Assembly: GCA_902810715.1 (NCBI GenBank)
Contig: CADDYS010000018.1
Span: forward strand, 1 to 32,524
Origin: a bacterium
GTDB lineage: Bacteria; Actinomycetota; Aquicultoria; Aquicultorales; Aquicultoraceae
DNA length: 32,524 nt
Reading direction: 5' to 3'
Translations under genes and position numbers: made by a program
Part shown: positions 6,049 to 26,155 of the stretch, piece by piece
Layout of the letters: every line of letters begins with the position of its first letter
Numbering within the stretch: position 1 is the stretch's first letter
Notes under the pieces: generated by a model
Database searches by the model: none
Told to the model about the DNA's origin: nothing
What the model saw: the letters and a program-made list of their open reading frames with translations, nothing else

Positions 6049-6143
6049 TCTATTCGCCCGCCCTCGACTGAACATACCGATTCTTTTATTCAGTTTATCC
6101 AGCAAACATTTCGCTTTTGTTTCGGGAAGGTGAAGATTTGATT

Positions 6144-16447: not shown

Positions 16448-17887
16448 TTAGATATCGTAGTAGAGGAAGAACTCGTATGGGTGTGGGCGAAGCCTTAGTG
16501 CATCTACCTCGTTGTCCCTCTTATACTCAATCCATGTCTTGATGATATCCTCGGTGAAGACGTTGCCCTTGAGCAAAAACTCATAGTCGGCTTCAAGAGC
16601 GTCGATTGCCTCATCAAGAGCGCCCGGCATTTGCGGGATCTTTGCAATCTCTTCCGGCGGGAGCTCGTAGAGATCTTTCTCCATCGGCTCTCCCGGGTGA
16701 ATTCTGTTCTCGATGCCGTCAAGGCCGGCCATCAGCATGGCGGCAAACGCAAGATATGGGTTGCAGGACGGGTCCGGGAATCTAACCTCGACCCTCTTTG
16801 CCTTGGGTGACGGTGAGTACATCGGGATGCGGATTGAAGCGGAACGGTTCCTAGCGGAATACGCAAGGTTAACCGGTGCCTCAAATCCCGGGACAAGCCT
16901 CTTGTATGAGTTGGTTGTCGGGTTGGTCAGCGCGGCAAGAGCCTTTGCGTGCTTGATGATGCCGCCGATATAGAAAAGCGCCATCTCGCTCAGGCCCGCA
17001 TACTCGTTGCCCGCAAACAGCGGCTGGCCGTCTTTCCAGAGGCTCTGATGGGTATGCATACCGCTTCCGTTATCTCCAAACAACGGTTTTGGCATAAAGG
17101 TTGCGGTTTTACCGTGCATAACCGATATGTTCTTTACAATGTACTTGAAAAGAAGTAGCTTATCCGCCATCTCAACCAGCGGTGAGAACCTCATGTCGAT
17201 CTCGCCCTGGCCGGCTGTTGCAACCTCGTGATGCTGCGCCTCAACATAGATGTCGCAGAGCTGCATAACGGTTACCATCTCGGAGCGGATATCATCCAGG
17301 CTGTCGACCGGCGGTACCGGGAAGTAACCTTCTTTGTGCCTCGGTTTGTAGCCAAGGTTTGGTTCCTCATACGAGCCGCTGTTCCAGATACCTTCTTTTG
17401 AATCCAAAAAGTAGTACCCCTCATGGGCATTCTGGTCAAAGCGGATATCGTCAAAGATGAAGAACTCCGCTTCAGGGCCGAAGTAGGCGGTATCCGCAAC
17501 GCCGGTCGACTTCATGTAGTTGATTGCTTTTCTCGCAATGTACCTCGGGTCACGATCATACGGCTCCTTGGTGATCGGGTCGTAGATGTCACAGATAAGG
17601 CTTAGGGTTTTGGATTTCTTGAACGGGTCCATCATTGCGCTTGCCGGGTCCGGCATGATGAGCATATCGGATGCGTGGATGGATTTCCATCCCCTGATTG
17701 ACGATCCGTCGAAGCCAAAGCCTTCCTCGAAGCTATCTTCGCTAAGCTCCTCAATCGGAACTACGAAATGCTGCCAAACACCCGGTAGATCGATGAACTT
17801 CAGATCCACAAAGCGAGTTTCATTTTTTTTCGCAAAGTCCAGGACTTCCTTCGGTGTCATTATTTGCGTTTTTTCCTTTGTTGACAT
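16448..17887 (-). CDS. glnA: glutamine synthetase type I-beta (adenylylation-regulated)
   Basis: This 479-residue enzyme makes glutamine from glutamate, ammonia and ATP in the cytoplasm. It carries [23 protein letters not shown], the ATP-site [18 protein letters not shown] and the glutamate-site NRSASIRIP. Unlike its neighbour it has the GSI-beta insert [20 protein letters not shown] and the adenylylation motif [12 protein letters not shown], with Tyr407 equivalent to the Tyr397 modified by GlnE in enteric bacteria. ATG 17887 is chosen for the GGAGGAGGAAGT just upstream, although the frame is open to 17926. A palindromic-repeat cluster separates it from the alpha-type gene, and a strong terminator follows. 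Confidence 0.97.
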
Positions 17888-17927
17888 ACTTCCTCCTCCA
17901 TAATGTCTAATATGGCTTATCGGCACC

Positions 17928-17979: not shown

Positions 17980-18082
17980 CTGTAGTTGCCCGATTCATCG
18001 GGCCCGTAGTTGCCTGATTTATCAGGGCAGGAGTTGCACAATTCATCGGACCTAAGAAGCTCCATAAACGGAGCAACTACAG
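17980..18082. repeat. cluster of GTAGTTGCCCGAT-type palindromic repeats bounded by a 10-bp inverted repeat
   Basis: Three direct copies lie at 17982-18004, 18006-18028 and 18031-18052, each a GTAGTTGCC-type leader with a small hairpin such as CCCGAT-TC-ATCGGG. A fourth, inverted relative with GCTCC-GTTTAT-GGAGC lies at 18057-18080. CTGTAGTTGC (17980-17989) and GCAACTACAG (18073-18082) form a perfect inverted repeat around the cluster, and the right arm includes the stop codon of the alpha-type glnA. Hairpins differ by compensating changes (CCCGAT/ATCGGG, CCTGAT/ATCAGG), indicating that pairing matters. A solitary copy lies at 6215. Confidence 0.75.
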
Positions 18083-19408
18083 TAAAGACAGGTACTTATT
18101 GAGTTCAAACTCGGTTACCTGAGCTTTATACTCATCCCAGTCGGCCTTCTTATTTCTCAAGAAGTACTCATATACATGGTCTCCGAGCGCCTTCCTTAAA
18201 AGGCCACTTTTCTCGGCTATCTTTATCGCCTCATAGAGATCCGCCGGCAGAGAGTCTATCCCGGCAGCCGCACGCTCGGCGTCGCTCATCTCGTAGATGT
18301 TATCGCTTGCCTCAGGCGCAAGCTCGTATCCCTTCTCAATTCCCTCAAGACCCGCGGCAAGCATTACTGAAAACGCGAGGTACGGGTTGCAGGCCGGGTC
18401 GGGGCTTCTTAATTCAATGCGGGTTGCTATCTCTTTACCCGGCTTATACATCGGGACTCTAACAAGCGCGCTTCTGTTTCTACGGCTCCAGCAGATATAG
18501 ACGGGGGCCTCATACCCCGGGACAAGCCTCTTATATGAATTAACCCACTGGTTGAGGATAACTGTTATCTCGGGCGCATGTCTCAAGATACCGGCGATAT
18601 ATCCTTTAGCCTCTTTTGAGAGATGCATATCGTCTTTTGCATCAAAGAACGCATTGGCATCGCCTTTAAATAGGGACTGGTGGGTATGCATGCCGCTTCC
18701 ATTTTGCCCGTAGATAGGCTTCGGCATAAAGGTCGCGTGTATGCCGTGCTCCTGGGCGATCTGCTTTACCGCAAGGCGGTACGTCATGACATTGTCCGCC
18801 ATTGTTAAGGCATCGGCAAAGCGCAGATCGATCTCGTGCTGGCTCGGGGCAACCTCGTGGTGCGAGTACTCCACGGTGATTCCCATTTGTTCAAGGGAAA
18901 ATATTGTCTCGCGCCGGTGTGGGGTTGCCAAATCAAGCGGGGTCAGGTCAAAATAGCCTCCCCTGTCCAATACCTCGGTGCCGTTGGCGTCTTTAAAGTA
19001 GAAAAACTCAAGCTCCGGGCCGACATACATGGTATAGCCCATTTCGGTCGCCCTCTTAAGGTTTCTTTTCAGGACATAGCGCGGATCGCCGTCAAACGGC
19101 GATCCGTCCGGCGTTTGGATATCGCAAAACATCCGCGCGACCTTTGCATCCTTCGACCAGGGAAGAAGCGTAAATGTATTGGGGTCGGGTTTTGCGATCA
19201 TATCGGACTCTTCAATCCTGGTAAAGCCCTCGATTGAGGAGCCGTCAAATCCCATCCCCTCCTCAAATGCAGTTTCAAGCTCAGCCGGGGTGATGGCAAA
19301 GCTTTTGAGGAATCCTAGGACATCTGTAAACCAGAGGCGGATGAACTTCACATCCTTGTCTTTAACAACTTTAAGAACATATTCTTCGTCTTTTTTTAAG
19401 GTCTTCAA
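18077..19408 (-). CDS. glnA: glutamine synthetase type I-alpha
   Basis: The 443-residue protein is a second glutamine synthetase of the shorter GSI-alpha class. Active-site motifs are intact: [40 protein letters not shown] and NRSALVRVP. It lacks the roughly 25-residue beta insert and the DLYELPPEE adenylylation motif; the matching region reads DNIYEMSDAERAA, so GlnE should not control it. Start is TTG at 19408 with AAGGAAGGGG about 6 nt upstream. A GTAAC-N6-GTAAC box 64-79 bp upstream suggests direct control by the GlnR-type regulator encoded next to it. Its stop codon lies inside the terminal inverted repeat of the downstream repeat cluster. Confidence 0.95.
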   Translation of the reverse strand: MKTLKKDEEYVLKVVKDKDVKFIRLWFTDVLGFLKSFAITPAELETAFEEGMGFDGSSIEGFTRIEESDMIAKPDPNTFTLLPWSKDAKVARMFCDIQTPDGSPFDGDPRYVLKRNLKRATEMGYTMYVGPELEFFYFKDANGTEVLDRGGYFDLTPLDLATPHRRETIFSLEQMGITVEYSHHEVAPSQHEIDLRFADALTMADNVMTYRLAVKQIAQEHGIHATFMPKPIYGQNGSGMHTHQSLFKGDANAFFDAKDDMHLSKEAKGYIAGILRHAPEITVILNQWVNSYKRLVPGYEAPVYICWSRRNRSALVRVPMYKPGKEIATRIELRSPDPACNPYLAFSVMLAAGLEGIEKGYELAPEASDNIYEMSDAERAAAGIDSLPADLYEAIKIAEKSGLLRKALGDHVYEYFLRNKKADWDEYKAQVTEFELNKYLSLL

Positions 19409-19471
19409 AGGTAACCCCTTCCTTTGCGGTTATTCAAATAATCGCATTTAAAAGAATTATAAATGCCGAAT

Positions 19472-19487
19472 GTTACGGTTATGTTAC
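19472..19487 (-). promoter_or_regulatory. GlnR-type box upstream of GSI-alpha glnA
   Basis: On the minus strand the sequence is GTAAC-ATAACC-GTAAC, a perfect direct repeat of GTAAC with 6-bp spacing. Actinobacterial GlnR binds gTnAc-n6-GaAAc/GTNAC-type boxes, so this is a strong candidate. It lies 64 bp before the TTG start, between glnA and the GlnR-like gene. Confidence 0.65.
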
Positions 19488-19505
19488 AGACGGATTAAAA
19501 TATTA

Positions 19506-20132
19506 TTATTTCTTGAACCTGTAGCCTACGTTCCTTATGGTTTCAATGAATGATTCGCGGCGACCAAGTTTTGCGCGGAGGCGCCTTATATGAACGTCGA
19601 CTGTGCGCGCGCCGCCGTAGTAGTCGTAACCCCAGACGCTGCTTAGTAACTGGTCGCGGGTATATACCCGGCCCCTATGGCTGATCAGGCACTTTAGGAG
19701 TTCATATTCTTTAAAGGTAAGGTCCAAGGGCGAGCCATCGATGGTTACCTCATAGTTTTCAAAATCAATGGTCATACCATCAACACAGAGAATATTCTTG
19801 TCTTGGACGGGATCAACTTCAGGATTACCCTGCCTGGCGAGGATAAGTCTTATCCTAAGCTCCAGCTCGCTTATATTGTAAGGTGTTAAGAGAATATCAT
19901 CCGCTCTTGCTAAAACATCCTCCGAGCCGCTTTCGCTCACATCATAAAGTACCAGGACAGCGGTACCGTTTAGATCGATGTTGCTTATTTCTTTAAACCT
20001 GCGGTAATCCATGATGATGATGTTTACGGCCTCAGTATCGGCGGGCATGACGCCGTATCCAAGAGCCGCCAGGTCAACGAGTAACTTCTCTTTTAACGCG
20101 TAGTTTTCTGTTATTACAGATGCCGTCCTCAC
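19506..20132 (-). CDS. glnR: GlnR-type orphan OmpR-family nitrogen regulator
   Basis: This 208-residue protein has a C-terminal winged helix highly typical of actinobacterial GlnR: DLTFKEYELLKCLISHRGRV, SSVWGYDYYGGARTVDVHIR and a final ETIRNVGYRF. The N-terminal receiver-like domain is short and lacks the usual paired acidic residues at its start (ASVITENYALKEKL), although an Asp is present in NIIIMDYRRF. This matches the atypical, probably non-phosphorylated receiver of GlnR. No kinase is adjacent. The start is GTG at 20132 with a G-rich upstream stretch. It lies 42 bp after the glutamate synthase genes and 97 bp before a glutamine synthetase gene preceded by a matching box, supporting a role as the nitrogen regulator. 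Confidence 0.8.
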   Translation of the reverse strand: MRTASVITENYALKEKLLVDLAALGYGVMPADTEAVNIIIMDYRRFKEISNIDLNGTAVLVLYDVSESGSEDVLARADDILLTPYNISELELRIRLILARQGNPEVDPVQDKNILCVDGMTIDFENYEVTIDGSPLDLTFKEYELLKCLISHRGRVYTRDQLLSSVWGYDYYGGARTVDVHIRRLRAKLGRRESFIETIRNVGYRFKK

Positions 20133-20174: not shown

Positions 20175-20918
20175 TTAATACGCATACAAATTACCATACG
20201 GCCTATGCGATACCGCTTTAATTTTTATGAACTCGTCTTTTAGGATATCGTCTGCATCAAGGCCTAAGTCGCCTGCAAACTCGGTGACGTATTTTTCTAT
20301 GGTTTGGCGGTCGCTGTCATCAACCTCGAGAACTGCAACTTCTTTACCAAGTTGGTAATCCTCGAGTTTGCCGCGCACGTAGATTACGCCCCCATGCATG
20401 CCGGTTGCGAAGTAGTTGCCGGCAATCTGGTCGCTATCGTTGTTCCCGGTATCCAACCCCAGAAGAATCAGGGTGCCGCCGGCCATATACTCTCCAAAAA
20501 AGTCGCGGGCCGTTCCTCCAATGACTATAACCGGCACCTTGTCCTTGTATTCTTTCATATGGATGCCGACACGGTAGCCGACGTCTCCCTTTATGAAGAG
20601 CTTGCCGCCCCGCATGCCGTATCCTAAAACGTCACCGGCATCGCCGTGGACTACGATTTTGCCCTCGTTCATGGTGTTGGCGATATGGTCTTGGCCGTTG
20701 GCATGAACTATCACGGTTGGGCCGTTCATGAATGCGCCAAGGTCGTTTCCGGGCACACCTTCAATTGTGATTTGAACCGGGCTGTCGATCGCATCGGCAA
20801 TGTAGCGCTGCCCGTTCACGTTTGCGAGCTTTATCTCGGTCTCCCCGCCTGCAACGGCTTCTCTTACTTTTTCGTTTAACTCTCGGTAAGGCAACCCTTT
20901 AGCGTCAATCGTTATCAT
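20175..20918 (-). CDS. glutamate synthase GXGXG-domain subunit (GltB3-like)
   Basis: The 247-residue product is a stand-alone GXGXG beta-helix domain, equivalent to the C-terminal third of the large glutamate synthase subunit and related to FwdC/FmdC. The repeats run GVPGNDLGAFMNGPTVIVHA, GDAGDVLGYGMRGGKLFIKG, GGTARDFFGEYMAGGTLILLG and YFATGMHGGVIYVRG. In the fused enzyme this domain is structural, packing against the synthase and glutaminase domains. The ATG at 20918 overlaps the stop of the FAD oxidoreductase gene (ATGA), so it is translationally coupled in the operon gltB1-gltB2-ferredoxin-oxidoreductase-gltB3. Confidence 0.92.
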   Translation of the reverse strand: MITIDAKGLPYRELNEKVREAVAGGETEIKLANVNGQRYIADAIDSPVQITIEGVPGNDLGAFMNGPTVIVHANGQDHIANTMNEGKIVVHGDAGDVLGYGMRGGKLFIKGDVGYRVGIHMKEYKDKVPVIVIGGTARDFFGEYMAGGTLILLGLDTGNNDSDQIAGNYFATGMHGGVIYVRGKLEDYQLGKEVAVLEVDDSDRQTIEKYVTEFAGDLGLDADDILKDEFIKIKAVSHRPYGNLYAY

Positions 20919-22171
20919 TTGGCCACTGCACCCAGCCTTTCTTTTCTCAGCTCAACCGGGAAATCGATATATCCAAAGTCGTCGGCCAGCAGGCGGTCGC
21001 GCATGCTGCTTATATCGATCTGGTCGCGGATAAGCCCGGTAATAATGCCGGCCCGGTCGATCTTTCCGACAAAGACCGCGCCTACTATCGTGCTTCCCCT
21101 TAAGACAATCTTGCGATAGTTGCCGTTTTCAATTTTGGTCAGGACTTCTAAGTCGTCGGAGTCGATATTTGAAAGCCCGGCAGTGATAACCGGGACACCG
21201 AAGAGCTCAATCGAGTTCATCGCCAAACCGCCGGTAAACTCGCGCTCAACACCGGCCATGTTAAGCCCGGCAATTTTGCCCTGGATGTAGGCATTCGGCC
21301 ATATCGGGATAACCCGGTTTCCGCCGTTTAGATAATCCGGGCCTTCGGTAACGTCTCCCGCCGCGTAAACATCGGGCAGGTTGGTTCTCATGTGGTTATC
21401 GGTTACGATACCACGGTTTACCTCAACCCCGCTCTCTTTAGCAAAAACGGCATTTGGGACAACACCGATGGCTACAATTACGGCGTCGCATCTAATTTCC
21501 CGGCCGTCTTTAAGCCTCACACCGTTGGCAGCCTTGCCGCCGAGTATCTCATCGACCGTGTTCTCTGTAACGATGTTGATACCCGCTTTCTCAAGCGCGC
21601 TCTGGACGATGCCTCCGGCATCAACATCTAAAACGGCGGCCATAACGCGGTTGGCAAGCTCAACTACCGTTACCTCCACACCACGGTGGTGCAGACTTTC
21701 TGCGGCTTTTAGCCCGATTAGACCCGCGCCGATAATCACGACGTGGTCCATCTCAGGGACCAGGGCATCGATCTGCTTGGCGTCGTCCATCTTGATGAAC
21801 GTGTAGATCCTTTCCTTGCCCAGACCCTTCATCGGGGGAATAAACGGTGTGCCGCCGGTTGCAATCAAAAGCTTGCCGTAGGCGACCTCTTCGCCGTTGT
21901 CTAACTTTACGGATTTTTTCGCCGAGTCGATTGCGACGACTCTCTTGCCCAGCTTTGTCGTAACTCCGTTTTTCTCATAGAAGCCCGGTTCGCGGTAGCC
22001 CATCATCTCTTCTTTAACCTGACCGGCAAGGAACTCGGAGATAAGCGGGCGCGAATAAACCAAATACGGCTCATCCGATATCACGGTTATATTGATCTCT
22101 TTATCTACTTTTCGTATCGCCTCGATGGCACCGATTGCGGCCACCGAGTTGCCAATAATTACGTAGCTCAC
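20915..22171 (-). CDS. FAD/NAD(P)-dependent oxidoreductase of the glutamate synthase operon
   Basis: This 418-residue flavoprotein has two dinucleotide-binding folds: an N-terminal FAD site with GNSVAAIGAIEAIR (a variant of GxGxxG) and a central NAD(P)H site VVIIGAGLIGLKAAE near residue 145. DVYAAGDVTEG is the second FAD contact. It belongs to the class I pyridine nucleotide-disulfide oxidoreductase-like group (rubredoxin/nitrite reductase type), without a redox CxxxxC pair. In this operon it probably passes electrons from NAD(P)H through the adjacent ferredoxin to the FMN/Fe-S synthase subunit, replacing the usual GltD. GTG 22171 is preceded by GGAGAGG. Six base pairs separate it from the ferredoxin gene. 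Confidence 0.88.
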   Translation of the reverse strand: MSYVIIGNSVAAIGAIEAIRKVDKEINITVISDEPYLVYSRPLISEFLAGQVKEEMMGYREPGFYEKNGVTTKLGKRVVAIDSAKKSVKLDNGEEVAYGKLLIATGGTPFIPPMKGLGKERIYTFIKMDDAKQIDALVPEMDHVVIIGAGLIGLKAAESLHHRGVEVTVVELANRVMAAVLDVDAGGIVQSALEKAGINIVTENTVDEILGGKAANGVRLKDGREIRCDAVIVAIGVVPNAVFAKESGVEVNRGIVTDNHMRTNLPDVYAAGDVTEGPDYLNGGNRVIPIWPNAYIQGKIAGLNMAGVEREFTGGLAMNSIELFGVPVITAGLSNIDSDDLEVLTKIENGNYRKIVLRGSTIVGAVFVGKIDRAGIITGLIRDQIDISSMRDRLLADDFGYIDFPVELRKERLGAVAK

Positions 22172-22177
22172 TTCTCT

Positions 22178-22612
22178 CTACCTCTCCTCATAAACTAAAG
22201 CCTGATTTGGGCACATCTCAACGCATGCCGGCGTGTCGCGGTCCGGGCAAAGGTCGCATTTTGCGATTTTCTTTCGCTCAAGGTCGCGCTGCGGTGCGCC
22301 GTATGGGCAGACCAGAACGCACGTCCAGCAGCCGACACATTTTTCCTCGTTGTAGACAACTCTGCCGCTTTCATCTTTAGTTAAAGCGCCTGTGATGCAG
22401 GACTCAACACACTCCGGCTCGTCGCAGTGACGGCATTGTAAGGCAAAAGAGACCGGCATCAGCTCTTCAACAAGCACACGGGATACAGGCGGCGGAAACT
22501 CCGATTTGTGTGCCTTGATTATATTTTTTGACCGCGAGTGCTCGGTGCGGCACCACACTTCGCAGAGCCTGCATCCGATACATACCTCTTCTTTAGCATA
22601 AACCCTTTTCAT
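22178..22612 (-). CDS. multi-cluster 4Fe-4S ferredoxin-like electron-transfer subunit
   Basis: The 144-residue protein contains four cysteine groups: CIGCRLCEVWC, CRHCDEPECVESC, CVGCWTCVLVC and CDLCPDRDTPACVEMC. This is the HycB/CooF/DmsB pattern that binds up to four [4Fe-4S] clusters. No signal peptide is present, so it acts in the cytoplasm. It sits between the glutamate synthase core subunit and the FAD oxidoreductase, so it likely carries electrons between them. ATG 22612 follows a weak GGATGG site. Its 221-bp upstream leader is filled with repeats, so it may be transcribed from gltB2 or from its own promoter. Confidence 0.9.
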   Translation of the reverse strand: MKRVYAKEEVCIGCRLCEVWCRTEHSRSKNIIKAHKSEFPPPVSRVLVEELMPVSFALQCRHCDEPECVESCITGALTKDESGRVVYNEEKCVGCWTCVLVCPYGAPQRDLERKKIAKCDLCPDRDTPACVEMCPNQALVYEER

Positions 22613-22639
22613 ACGTACACCATCCGTTTATCTTACCTC

Positions 22640-22802
22640 CCACCGTTTGAGAAACCCCAACCGTTTAGGCCAAAAGGCGAAAAGGCCATAAGGCCAAAAG
22701 GGGATTAAAGTCTCTTATTCACCTTTTGGCGGACCCACAATTCTAGACCTAAATATCATTGGCCTTTTGGCGAGCCCACTTCCCAGACCCACTTTAAAGT
22801 GG
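22640..22802. repeat. cluster of GGCC-TTTTGG direct and inverted repeats
   Basis: CCTTTTGGCGGACCCAC (22722-22738) and CCTTTTGGCGAGCCCAC (22763-22779) are direct repeats differing at two positions. Inverted relatives GGCCAAAAGGCG and GGCCATAAGGCCAAAAGG lie at 22668-22700. CCACTTTAAAGTGG (22789-22802) is a perfect 14-bp palindrome, and TTCTAGACC occurs at 22741 and 22814. The cluster lies inside the glutamate synthase gene series and can fold into several hairpins. Confidence 0.6.
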
Positions 22803-22833
22803 CCTTCTCTCGTTCTAGACCCTCTTTTCTTCG

Positions 22834-24351
22834 CTAGGCCATCGGCGAACCGGCCACCTGCACGCCCAGTACATCCATCTCTTCCCTGGATAGGCCGACC
22901 GCTCTTAAGTGTAATCTATTTCCGCGAAGCGACTCGATCGCGTTAATCCCCATACCGCCGAGCATCTCGGATATCTCATGCGACCATCCTCTGACTAGGT
23001 TGTAAAGCCGCTCTGCGGCGATATCGGGGTTGAGCCGTTTCTCAAGATATGGATTCTGGGTTGCGATACCCCAGTTGCATTTTCCTGTATAGCATTTCTG
23101 GCAGACGTGACATCCCATCGCAACGAGAGCCGCAGTGCCAAGATAAACCGCATCTGCACCAAGCGCAATTGCCTTGATAACGTCGCCGCTGTTTCTAAAG
23201 CCGCCCGCCGCAATGATTGATGCGCGGTTGCGGATACCTTCTTCGCGCAATCGCGCGTCCACCGCTGCAATTGCAAGCTCAATCGGTATACCAACGTTGT
23301 CCCTGATCATCGTCGGGGCGGCTCCGGTGCCTCCACGGAAGCCATCGATTGCAATGATATCGGCCCCGGCGCGGGCGATACCGGAGGCTATTGCCGCCAC
23401 GTTATGAACCGCCGATATTTTAACCGAGATTGGCTTCGTATACTCGGTTGCTTCTTTTAAGCTGAAGATGAGCTGGCTCAGGTCCTCGATTGAGTAGATA
23501 TCATGATGCGGCGCGGGCGACAGCGCATCTGAGCCGACAGGGATCATCCTGGTCTCGCTTACCGCCGGGCCGACTTTTTCACCGGGCAGGTGCCCGCCGA
23601 TGCCCGGCTTTGCGCCCTGCCCTATCTTAATCTCGATTGCCGCGGCGGCATCAAGATACTCGCTGTGAACACCAAACCTGCCCGACGCAACCTGAACTAT
23701 CGTGTTCGGCGCGTACTTATAAAGGTTTCTATGAAGACCGCCTTCGCCGGTGTTCCAGAAAGTGCCCAGCTCGGTTGCGGCGCGCCCTAAAGCCTCACAG
23801 GCGTTGTAGCTGATCGCGCCGTACGACATCGCCGAAAAAAGTATCGGTGTTTTAAGCATAATTTGCGGCGCAATCTTTGTCCTTAAAACCGGCTCGCCGT
23901 TTACCATCTCAATCTCGATATGGTCCGGCTTGCTCCCCAGGTACGTGCGAAGCTCCATCGGTTCACGCAGCGGGTCGATTGATGGATTGGTAACCTGGCT
24001 CGCGTTTAGAACCAGGTGATCCCAGTAAATCGGGTACGGTTTGGGGTTGCCCATACCGGTAAGCAACACGCCGCCGGTCTCCGCCTGCTTCCAGATGTAT
24101 TTCTGGGTCTCGGCGGTCCAGTTGGCGTTGTCCTTAACAAACGGGGCGTTGTCTTTTATGTAAAGTGCGTTGGTCGGGCAAAGACTGACGCATCTCTGGC
24201 AGGCGACGCATTTTTCGTCTTCGCTGTAGACCTCGCCGTCCTCGTCGAACTTGTGCGCATTGAAGGCGCACTGGCGCACGCAAACGCCGCAGTTTATGCA
24301 CCTGTCTTTATCCCGCTCAATTCTAACCTCAGGTAGCTGGTATGTCTTCAT
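22834..24351 (-). CDS. glutamate synthase FMN/Fe-S core subunit with N-terminal ferredoxin domain (GltB2-like)
   Basis: This 505-residue protein forms glutamate from 2-oxoglutarate and ammonia. Residues 14-65 hold a two-cluster ferredoxin domain, CINCGVCVRQC and CVACQRCVSLC. The rest is an FMN-binding glutamate synthase barrel: FSAMSYGAISYNACEALGRA, GGHLPGEKV, SPAPHHDIYSIEDL, KISAVHNVAAIASG, DGFRGGTGAAPTMI and GADAVYLGTAALVAMGC. The Cys-rich segment CHVCQKCYTGKC binds the 3Fe-4S-type cluster. This is the archaeal or thermophile-type arrangement in which the domains of the large subunit are separate genes. The ATG at 24351 directly abuts the stop of gltB1, so translation is coupled. A repeat cluster follows the gene. 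Confidence 0.95.
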   Translation of the reverse strand: MKTYQLPEVRIERDKDRCINCGVCVRQCAFNAHKFDEDGEVYSEDEKCVACQRCVSLCPTNALYIKDNAPFVKDNANWTAETQKYIWKQAETGGVLLTGMGNPKPYPIYWDHLVLNASQVTNPSIDPLREPMELRTYLGSKPDHIEIEMVNGEPVLRTKIAPQIMLKTPILFSAMSYGAISYNACEALGRAATELGTFWNTGEGGLHRNLYKYAPNTIVQVASGRFGVHSEYLDAAAAIEIKIGQGAKPGIGGHLPGEKVGPAVSETRMIPVGSDALSPAPHHDIYSIEDLSQLIFSLKEATEYTKPISVKISAVHNVAAIASGIARAGADIIAIDGFRGGTGAAPTMIRDNVGIPIELAIAAVDARLREEGIRNRASIIAAGGFRNSGDVIKAIALGADAVYLGTAALVAMGCHVCQKCYTGKCNWGIATQNPYLEKRLNPDIAAERLYNLVRGWSHEISEMLGGMGINAIESLRGNRLHLRAVGLSREEMDVLGVQVAGSPMA

Positions 24352-25491
24352 CTAAGCCACCGTCTCCTCTAACTCTCTAGCTTTGTTACTGCCTTTCTTA
24401 ACAGGGTTTTTTAACTCCCCTACCACCGGCTCGCCGGCCTTTGGGTTCCAAACTATATCAAGCTCGGGCGAAATCTCGCGAATCGCCGCTTCCTCACTTG
24501 CGATATAGAGCATATCATCTTTTCTTGCCGCGGTCAGCGGGCGAAGTTTTACGCGGTCGCTTAACCCCACCATACCGTTTGTATGACCCAGGATTATAGC
24601 AAATGGACCGTTTAGCAACGCGCCGCCGTAGACCATCCTGAGTGCTTCATAAATATCACCTTTTGCGTTGCCCTTTGCTTTCATGCGATCGATGTCGGTC
24701 CAAAACGGGGCTGCTAAGGCCTTACAAGCTACCTCAAGCGGCAGGTTGTGTCGCCTTAGCATAAGGTCAAACATATAAGCCACTACCTCGGTGTCGGTAA
24801 GCATCGTGCACTTGTATCCAAACATCTCAAGGTATCGCTTGTTAATTCCATAGGATGATATTTCGCCGTTATGAACGATCGCCCAGTCGAGAATGGTAAA
24901 TGGATGGGCGCCGCCCCACCAGCCGGGGGTGTTGGTTGGAAACCTTCCATGGCCGATCCAGGTGTATCCCTCATACTCGTCCAAGCGATAGAATTTGCCT
25001 ACGTCTTCGGGGTAGCCGACAGCCTTAAAGGCCCCCATGTTTTTGCCGGACGAGAAGATAAAGGCTCCCGAAACCATGGAGTTAACCGTCATCACAGCTT
25101 CGATGACATAGTCCTCCTCGCACAAACCGCAATCTTCAAAATCAACTTTCGGCTTTACAAAATATCTCCAGAGTAGCGGGCCCTTGGGGATCGCCTCGGA
25201 TTTTTTTGTCGGGATAATCTCCTCGCTGTCAATCTCAAACCGCTCATCAAGCAGCACATCGGTTTCTTCCTTAGCCTTTACGTCATCATACATAATGTGC
25301 AGCGCGTAATAGTCCGCTTTATGCGGATATATCCCGTAGGCGGCAAATCCCCCGCCAAGACCGTTTGAGCGGTCATGAAGAACTTCCATCGAGCGGATGA
25401 TAGCCTCGCCGCCCATCAGCCTTCCGTCTTCGCTCATCATGCCGGCTAAACCACATCCCGAGATATTCCTGCGGTGTATCTGACCTTCCAC
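24352..25491 (-). CDS. glutamate synthase glutaminase subunit, class II amidotransferase (GltB1-like)
   Basis: The 379-residue protein is a stand-alone class II glutamine amidotransferase that releases ammonia for the synthase subunit. The N-terminal nucleophile is Cys13 in NISGCGLAGMM, implying removal of a 12-residue propeptide. Further class II motifs are GHGRFPTNTPGWWGGAHPF, the Asn/Gly site VHNGEISSYG and TDTEVVAY. GTG 25491 has a GGGGGAGG site 7 nt upstream. It is the first gene of the operon, followed by gltB2 with no gap. A possible GlnR half-match (GTGCC-N6-GAAAC, 25529-25544) lies upstream on the other strand. Confidence 0.94.
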   Translation of the reverse strand: MEGQIHRRNISGCGLAGMMSEDGRLMGGEAIIRSMEVLHDRSNGLGGGFAAYGIYPHKADYYALHIMYDDVKAKEETDVLLDERFEIDSEEIIPTKKSEAIPKGPLLWRYFVKPKVDFEDCGLCEEDYVIEAVMTVNSMVSGAFIFSSGKNMGAFKAVGYPEDVGKFYRLDEYEGYTWIGHGRFPTNTPGWWGGAHPFTILDWAIVHNGEISSYGINKRYLEMFGYKCTMLTDTEVVAYMFDLMLRRHNLPLEVACKALAAPFWTDIDRMKAKGNAKGDIYEALRMVYGGALLNGPFAIILGHTNGMVGLSDRVKLRPLTAARKDDMLYIASEEAAIREISPELDIVWNPKAGEPVVGELKNPVKKGSNKARELEETVA

Positions 25492-25582: not shown

Positions 25583-25615
25583 ATAAAAAACACCAACAAC
25601 CTTTCGGTTTGTTGG
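25583..25615 (-). terminator. rho-independent terminator of the hydrogenase operon
   Basis: On the minus strand CCAACAAACC-GAAA-GGTTGTTGG (25593-25615) forms a strong stem, with one bulged base, followed by TGTTTTTTATTATT (25592-25579). It separates the maturation protease from the glutamate synthase operon. Confidence 0.87.
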
Positions 25616-25672
25616 CGCCATTGCCAAAGTTTTCCTTTGTGCAATCAATTATATTAAGTTTATGTTACGATG

Positions 25673-26155
25673 TCAAACACTTGCCCTCAAATTTTTCAGG
25701 CCGGCGTGTATCTCGCCGAGCACAAACGCCTTAAGCTTATCCATTTTGGCTTCTACCTGCGGCGATAGCTCTTCTCCCCAATCGATTTTTGCGGGCTCTA
25801 TGCCGAAAATAATGGTCGGGGGCAAAGTCCCCATAGCCTGCGCCAGCCGTATAAAGTCGTAAATCCCCAGGTCGTGGAAGGATATTTTGTATTTTTTAGG
25901 GATAACATCCACTGAGTCGGGCTCGAAGCGAAAAATGCTGCCCGGCTCCGTGCCGGCCTTAACGCAATCGATGATAATAAGCTTTGCCACATCCTCCATG
26001 TAGGCAAGAAGTTCAAGCCCCTGCGTCCCGCCATCCTGGATTTCAACATTCGGCGGGAGTTCTTCAGCCGGGAGCCGGCGTGCAAGATGCACACCGGCTC
26101 CCTCATCGCTAAGTATTGTATTGCCCACACCTAAAACTAAAACCTTATTCTTCAT
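25673..26155 (-). CDS. NiFe hydrogenase maturation protease (HyaD/HybD family)
   Basis: This 160-residue endopeptidase removes the C-terminal tail of the large subunit after nickel insertion. The nickel-sensing residues are in place: Glu18 in GNTILSDEGAGVH, Asp63 in IIIDCVKAG and His94 in SFHDLG. Length and order match HybD. The likely target is the tail after DPCISCAVH in the large subunit encoded 0.6 kb upstream in the same operon. ATG 26155 lies inside the last codons of the cytochrome gene (11-bp overlap); a GTG at 26164 is an alternative. A strong terminator follows. Confidence 0.93.
   Translation of the reverse strand: MKNKVLVLGVGNTILSDEGAGVHLARRLPAEELPPNVEIQDGGTQGLELLAYMEDVAKLIIIDCVKAGTEPGSIFRFEPDSVDVIPKKYKISFHDLGIYDFIRLAQAMGTLPPTIIFGIEPAKIDWGEELSPQVEAKMDKLKAFVLGEIHAGLKNLRASV

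Follow-up and report, generated by a model that had tools for sequence, protein, structure and literature searches.

The window, by which we mean the whole stretch of 32,524 nucleotides analysed here, carries on its minus strand a gene for an OmpR-type regulator (REG) immediately upstream of glnA. Very probably, REG is an orphan regulator of the GlnR family, served at glnA by an array of half-sites in 11-bp phase that takes the place of the −35 hexamer; that REG binds this array, activates glnA and answers to nitrogen is what we infer. The explanation is based on family membership, the site itself, its register, its conservation and its co-occurrence with the regulator. The host belongs to Actinomycetota, in an uncultivated lineage that lies apart from the Actinomycetes GlnR group, the phylum placement being taken from kinship labels and from a Streptomyces-like genome that falls in the same phylum. 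GlnR itself is already known; what is new here is the lineage, the linkage to glnA, the strict register and a candidate target, nadE.

In minus-strand order, the locus consists of a split (archaeal-type) glutamate synthase operon (20175–25491), REG (19506–20132; 208 aa, GTG start), a gap of 97 bp (19409–19505), glnA1 (18077–19408) and a second glutamine synthetase gene (16448–17926) lying 150 bp 3′ of glnA1. The likely target of REG, glnA1, encodes a type I glutamine synthetase (TIGR00653, 536.7 bits against a cut-off of 429), and the second gene scored 706 bits with the same model. REG thus has glutamate synthase genes and glnA as its neighbours, and no histidine kinase gene adjoins it.

Relationship of REG to GlnR

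When REG was searched against PDB sequences with phmmer, the best matches were the GlnR proteins of M. tuberculosis (8hih, E 2e-36) and S. erythraea (8hig/8hml); RegX3 came at 1e-23, about 13 orders of magnitude behind GlnR. The genome was also queried with GlnR from M. tuberculosis, S. erythraea and the Streptomyces-like genome G056. With each of these, REG ranked first among the eight OmpR-type regulators found, whereas for MtrA, PhoP and RegX3 other genes of the genome came first. In a tree of full-length proteins, the GlnR-like proteins including REG were split from ordinary response regulators with a support of 100/100. A tree made from the winged helix only placed REG with GlnR (91/94), which removes the degenerate receiver as the cause of the grouping. 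It may be noted that an AU test for a single clade omitted the other GlnR-like rows, and its rejection says nothing on REG versus GlnR.

The first-pass annotation had called the regulator GlnR-type from its winged helix and had proposed that it be compared with GlnR and with PhoP and MtrA by phylogeny. Both trees and the best-match tests bear this out: REG falls with GlnR and away from PhoP, MtrA, RegX3 and KdpE. By every feature that in silico tests could reach, REG is a GlnR-family protein, although its identity to Actinomycetes GlnR is only 45–49%. The GlnR-like part of the full-length tree had three main groups, namely Actinomycetes GlnR, a glnA-linked group including Acidimicrobiales, and the proteins from this class.

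The receiver of REG was likewise expected to be non-phosphorylatable, and the residues needed for phosphorylation are indeed absent save one Asp. At five receiver places REG has T, E, D, L and T where MtrA has D, D, D, T and K; the acidic pair, the T/S and the K are gone, and the central Asp stays. The receiver of GlnR is also degenerate with the central Asp kept (PMC10704036). Pfam recognised Trans_reg_C in REG, the OmpR/PhoB winged helix, but not the receiver. In the AlphaFold model of full-length REG (pTM 0.48) the domain orientation is uncertain, and only its winged-helix matches are informative. Such a receiver cannot switch by phosphorylation in the usual way; its most likely role is that of a dimer or tetramer module.

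The glnA promoter and its conservation

The 97-bp gap contains the perfect repeat GTAAC-ATAACC-GTAAC (GTAACATAACCGTAAC; 19472–19487, on the minus, glnA coding strand) that the first-pass annotation had described, and we take it to be a predicted GlnR box of two half-sites in 11-bp phase. The pattern GTAACN6GTAAC was recreated in 0 of 20,000 dinucleotide shuffles of the gap. Beyond what that annotation had pointed out, a third half-site, TTAAT (19494–19498), lies upstream of the box in the same 11-bp phase, and a −10 hexamer, TATAAT (19456–19461), follows the box at a spacing of exactly 10 nt. A −35 hexamer was looked for at this promoter, and none was found. If the −10 hexamer is set at −12 to −7, a placement that corresponds to an inferred rather than a mapped start, the half-site centres fall at about −47, −36 and −25. 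With a matrix trained without the window's own sites, the glnA site scored 26.2, against a background maximum of 15.4.

The arrangement is shared by relatives within the family and, beyond it, by the sister family and by less closely related families of the class, so the expected conservation of the box upstream of glnA was recovered. In the family, the REG-linked glnA promoters read TTAAY-N6-GTAAC-N6-GTAAC-N10-TANNNT in all eight that could be aligned; 14 of the 15 half-site letters and the N10 register are invariant, while the spacers vary. The box was found before glnA in every family member where both glnA and REG were found. In G004 it stands on the glnA copy adjoining REG, an orthologue of the second glutamine synthetase gene, and not on glnA1. 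G003 keeps two half-sites (GTAAC and GTAAT) and the register, its third half-site not being clear. Outside the family, glnA of G011, from the sister family, is preceded by TTAAC-N6-GTAAC-N10-TATAAT, and that of G013 by three half-sites, N10 and TAGGAT. In family f6 the sequence is TTAAC-N6-GAAAY-N10, where the register is kept but the half-site letters differ. The Streptomyces-like genome has GCAAC-N6-GAAAC-N10-TCTGAT before glnA, so that this register would fit the classical group as well, albeit with a weak −10.

Synteny was also conserved: the order gltB-REG-glnA is kept in the family, and glnA-REG in other families of the class. Like these, the Acidimicrobiales loci have GlnR homologues linked to glnA, whereas none of the named Actinomycetes loci that were fetched has glnA within 4 kb of GlnR. 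Upstream of glnA in Acidimicrobiales (L165, L220) we observed TGAAC-N6-TGAAC, possibly a variant GlnR half-site.

We then asked in which genomes of the class regulator and box occur together. Where a GlnR-like gene (of this group, or beside glnA) is present and the upstream region of glnA1 could be scored, 13 genomes had a site (G000, G002, G003, G005–G009, G011, G013, G015, G026 and G030), several of these sites having trained the matrix; the window, G009, G013, G015 and G027 were outside the training set. G013 was counted because its adjacent gene is GlnR-like. The fourteenth such genome is G004, with its site on the glnA copy beside REG. Eleven scorable genomes without a GlnR-like gene showed no glnA1 site (lowest p 0.06); the one exception, in addition to these, is G027, a bin 79% complete in which the box is present and no regulator was detected. 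G021 and G034 could not be scored. On contig C197 of G027 (L101), glnA is 82% identical to that of the window and has a box of the family type, although the bin is assigned to a different family; we read this glnA and its box as transfer or contamination. In G001, gltB, REG and glnA1 are missing together while both amt units and their boxes are kept, which is more likely to reflect an incomplete bin.

Other candidate targets and the glutamate synthase operon

The 2.43-Mb genome contains four perfect GTAACN6GTAAC sites, two of which lie at the glnA promoter and at an amt-glnK promoter on contig C5. When the −10 element was included in the pattern (GTAACN6GNAACN10TANNNT), exactly these two promoters were found genome-wide, the reversed control pattern giving one match. 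The C5 promoter reads GTAAC-N6-GTAAC-N10-TAAAAT with a TTAAC half-site ahead. A row of at least six half-sites, phased at 11 bp and closing with GAAAC-N10-TATTAT, precedes the neighbouring amt on C5, so that both amt-glnK units, as well as amt of several relatives, share one register from box to −10. Like glnA, the amt promoters have a good −10 and no −35, and upstream of both genes the half-sites are GTnAC or GAAAC separated by N6, as expected for GlnR. Single-mismatch GTAAC-type sites, on the other hand, were not enriched genome-wide over the reversed control. The two remaining perfect sites (C47:438 and C76:12725), with no fitting nitrogen gene or −10 hexamer, were taken as chance, as were matches in G001 C2 and in G001 C27/G000 C83, where the genes at or close to the site offer no plausible nitrogen target.

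In G002 and G011, nadE (NAD synthase) is preceded by a box in the −10 register (L149, 6608–6639; L151, 6737–6768). In other relatives nadE directly follows glnA. No box was found before REG itself, glnE, glnA2 or nadE of this genome. Within the window, the second-best site with the matrix lacking the window's own sites (16.5, against the background maximum of 15.4) is a candidate second box, GAAAC-AAAAGC-GAAAT-N10-TAAACT (6092–6123, minus strand), before pucR-amt-glnK (6105–2700). As this box overlaps the TTG start listed for pucR (6105), the gene for a PucR-family regulator, the true start is probably further downstream.

The glutamate synthase of this organism is of the archaeal (split) type, as the first-pass annotation had stated. 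Its operon lies upstream of REG, runs in the same direction towards REG and glnA, and keeps this synteny in the family. It encodes the GATase (24352–25491), the FMN domain (22834–24351), a ferredoxin (22178–22612), an NAD(P)H oxidoreductase (20915–22171) and the GXGXG subunit (20175–20918), all on the minus strand. The gltB promoter is a strong one of the sigma-70 type, a perfect TTGACA-17-TATAAT (25648–25676, minus strand), kept in the family. Inside its 17-bp spacer, between −35 and −10, lies a family-conserved GTAAC-N6-TTAAT (25653–25668). This is a different, possibly opposite, layout in a repressor-like position; that REG represses gltB is a guess, and one we lean slightly against.

The gltB leader (25585–25625, minus strand), conserved in the family and in G011, contains a mini-hairpin, GGC-AATGGC-GCC (25614–25625); its 3′ arm is also part of an intrinsic terminator, a hairpin with a T-run (25585–25619). 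The mini-hairpin was read from the letters, the minimum-energy fold showing the terminator instead. ANTAR targets have a hexaloop hairpin with A at position 1 and G at position 4 (PMC3369931). In all gltB leaders found (GGC-AATGGC-GCC and variants), A1 and G4 of the hexaloop are kept and the hairpin overlaps the terminator. No consistent second (P1) hexaloop hairpin was found upstream in these leaders, and Rfam at gathering scores gave nothing in the window, the gltB leader included. A single receiver-ANTAR protein is encoded in the genome, its gene adjoining one for a histidine kinase (L291).

Proposed mode of action and alternatives

PhoB promoters have 11-bp direct repeats that end about 10 nt before the −10, the pho box replacing the −35. 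The glnA array has the same geometry, with 11-bp repeats, about 10 nt to the −10 and no −35, and is in this respect like a class II activation site of the PhoB type. Unlike PhoB, REG is without a phosphorylation switch, its half-sites have other letters and the genes are those of nitrogen metabolism. We propose that under nitrogen limitation REG would bind head to tail on TTAAT-GTAAC-GTAAC before glnA. The array, ending 10 nt before the −10 hexamer, would stand in for the missing −35, and bound REG would recruit RNA polymerase in the class II manner of PhoB-type promoters. Since amt-glnK has this arrangement too, as does nadE in relatives, these genes are marked as further candidate targets. 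In the published GlnR transcription complex, the DNA-binding domains are arranged head to tail and a receiver tetramer bridges to the polymerase; glnA and amtB are activated by GlnR in the species studied (PMC10704036). The half-site centres and the absent −35, taken with this complex, make activation of glnA and amt the best reading, and given that REG binds, it probably activates both.

The array could also be read in the opposite sense. Bound over about −49 to −23, REG would block RNA polymerase and so repress glnA, and the half-sites do overlap the −35 place, while the gltB site has a classical repressor position. We consider this unlikely, as glnA and amt have a good −10 without a −35, like activator-dependent promoters, and are the genes that GlnR activates elsewhere. 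A similarly low probability is given to a box that serves chiefly a different OmpR-type regulator of the genome, for example the MtrA-like protein (C54) or a second GlnR-like regulator, REG2 (C23). MtrA reportedly binds GlnR boxes in S. coelicolor (Zhu et al. 2019, cited in PMC10704036), 11-bp direct repeats are generic to the OmpR family and readable by another member, and REG2 shares the winged helix and has a box-like promoter of its own in G000 and G004. However, REG2 was found in only two family genomes (E <= 1e-25), whereas every family genome found to have REG and glnA has the glnA box; class members with ordinary response regulators but without REG, such as G014, have no box.

It is far less probable still that REG is just a local regulator of the ordinary OmpR kind, with a GTAAC repeat produced by chance or promoter context. 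In favour of this are the shortness of the repeat and the lack of enrichment of single-mismatch sites. Against this stand the shuffling result, the position of two of the four perfect sites at nitrogen promoters, and the conservation of half-sites against free spacers in the eight family promoters, an observation contrary to chance.

Apart from these alternatives, REG as a putative GlnR-type activator resembles Actinomycetes GlnR (S. coelicolor, M. tuberculosis, S. erythraea) in being an orphan OmpR-type protein with only the central Asp left in the receiver. The recognition helix, RTVDVH[IV]RRLRAKLG, is near-identical, the sites (gTnAc-n6-GaAAc or GTnAC-n6-GTnAC) are phased head to tail, and glnA and amt are the targets, in the case of REG likely ones. 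It differs in its limited overall identity, in the place of its gene, which adjoins glnA and follows the glutamate synthase operon, and in the strict three-site TTAAY/GTAAC array at glnA in the REG family. The GlnR species covered by a review are Actinomycetes only (PMC10704036), and a limited literature search, which is weak evidence, listed no paper on GlnR for other actinobacterial classes. The suggestion that GlnR control may reach deep-branching relatives is supported inside the phylum by the glnA-linked homologues in Acidimicrobiales. The presence of REG and its site in this lineage suggests that GlnR control has a greater age and spread in the phylum than its known occurrence in well-studied soil bacteria, such as Streptomyces and Mycobacterium, would indicate. 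A GlnR in a remote class with a conserved site, together with the Acidimicrobiales homologues, makes the age of actinobacterial nitrogen control testable, and the less GC-rich, clean promoters of this lineage let the geometry of GlnR activation be read directly. More tentatively, and with doubt prevailing, GlnR control of glnA and amt, with fixed register and glnA linkage, could date from close to the base of Actinomycetota. In that case glnA, amt and nadE would, in this lineage, be activated by one regulator via −35 replacement, glutamate synthase would be repressed between −35 and −10, and the terminator leader would possibly be ANTAR-controlled.

REG2 (G000 C23; L002, 1474–2121; L056, 9648–10295) also has a degenerate receiver, and such a second GlnR-like regulator in one genome recalls GlnRII of Streptomyces. 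Unlike GlnRII, REG2 adjoins a glycosyltransferase (glucosyl-3-phosphoglycerate-synthase-like) gene and is itself preceded by a box-like promoter site. In both trees, from which GlnRII is absent, it falls among the REG proteins from this class. The site before REG2 is GAAAC-N6-GTAAT-N10-TACCTT, a weaker one, in G000, and in the same arrangement GTAAC-N6-GTAAC-N10-TACTGT in G004.
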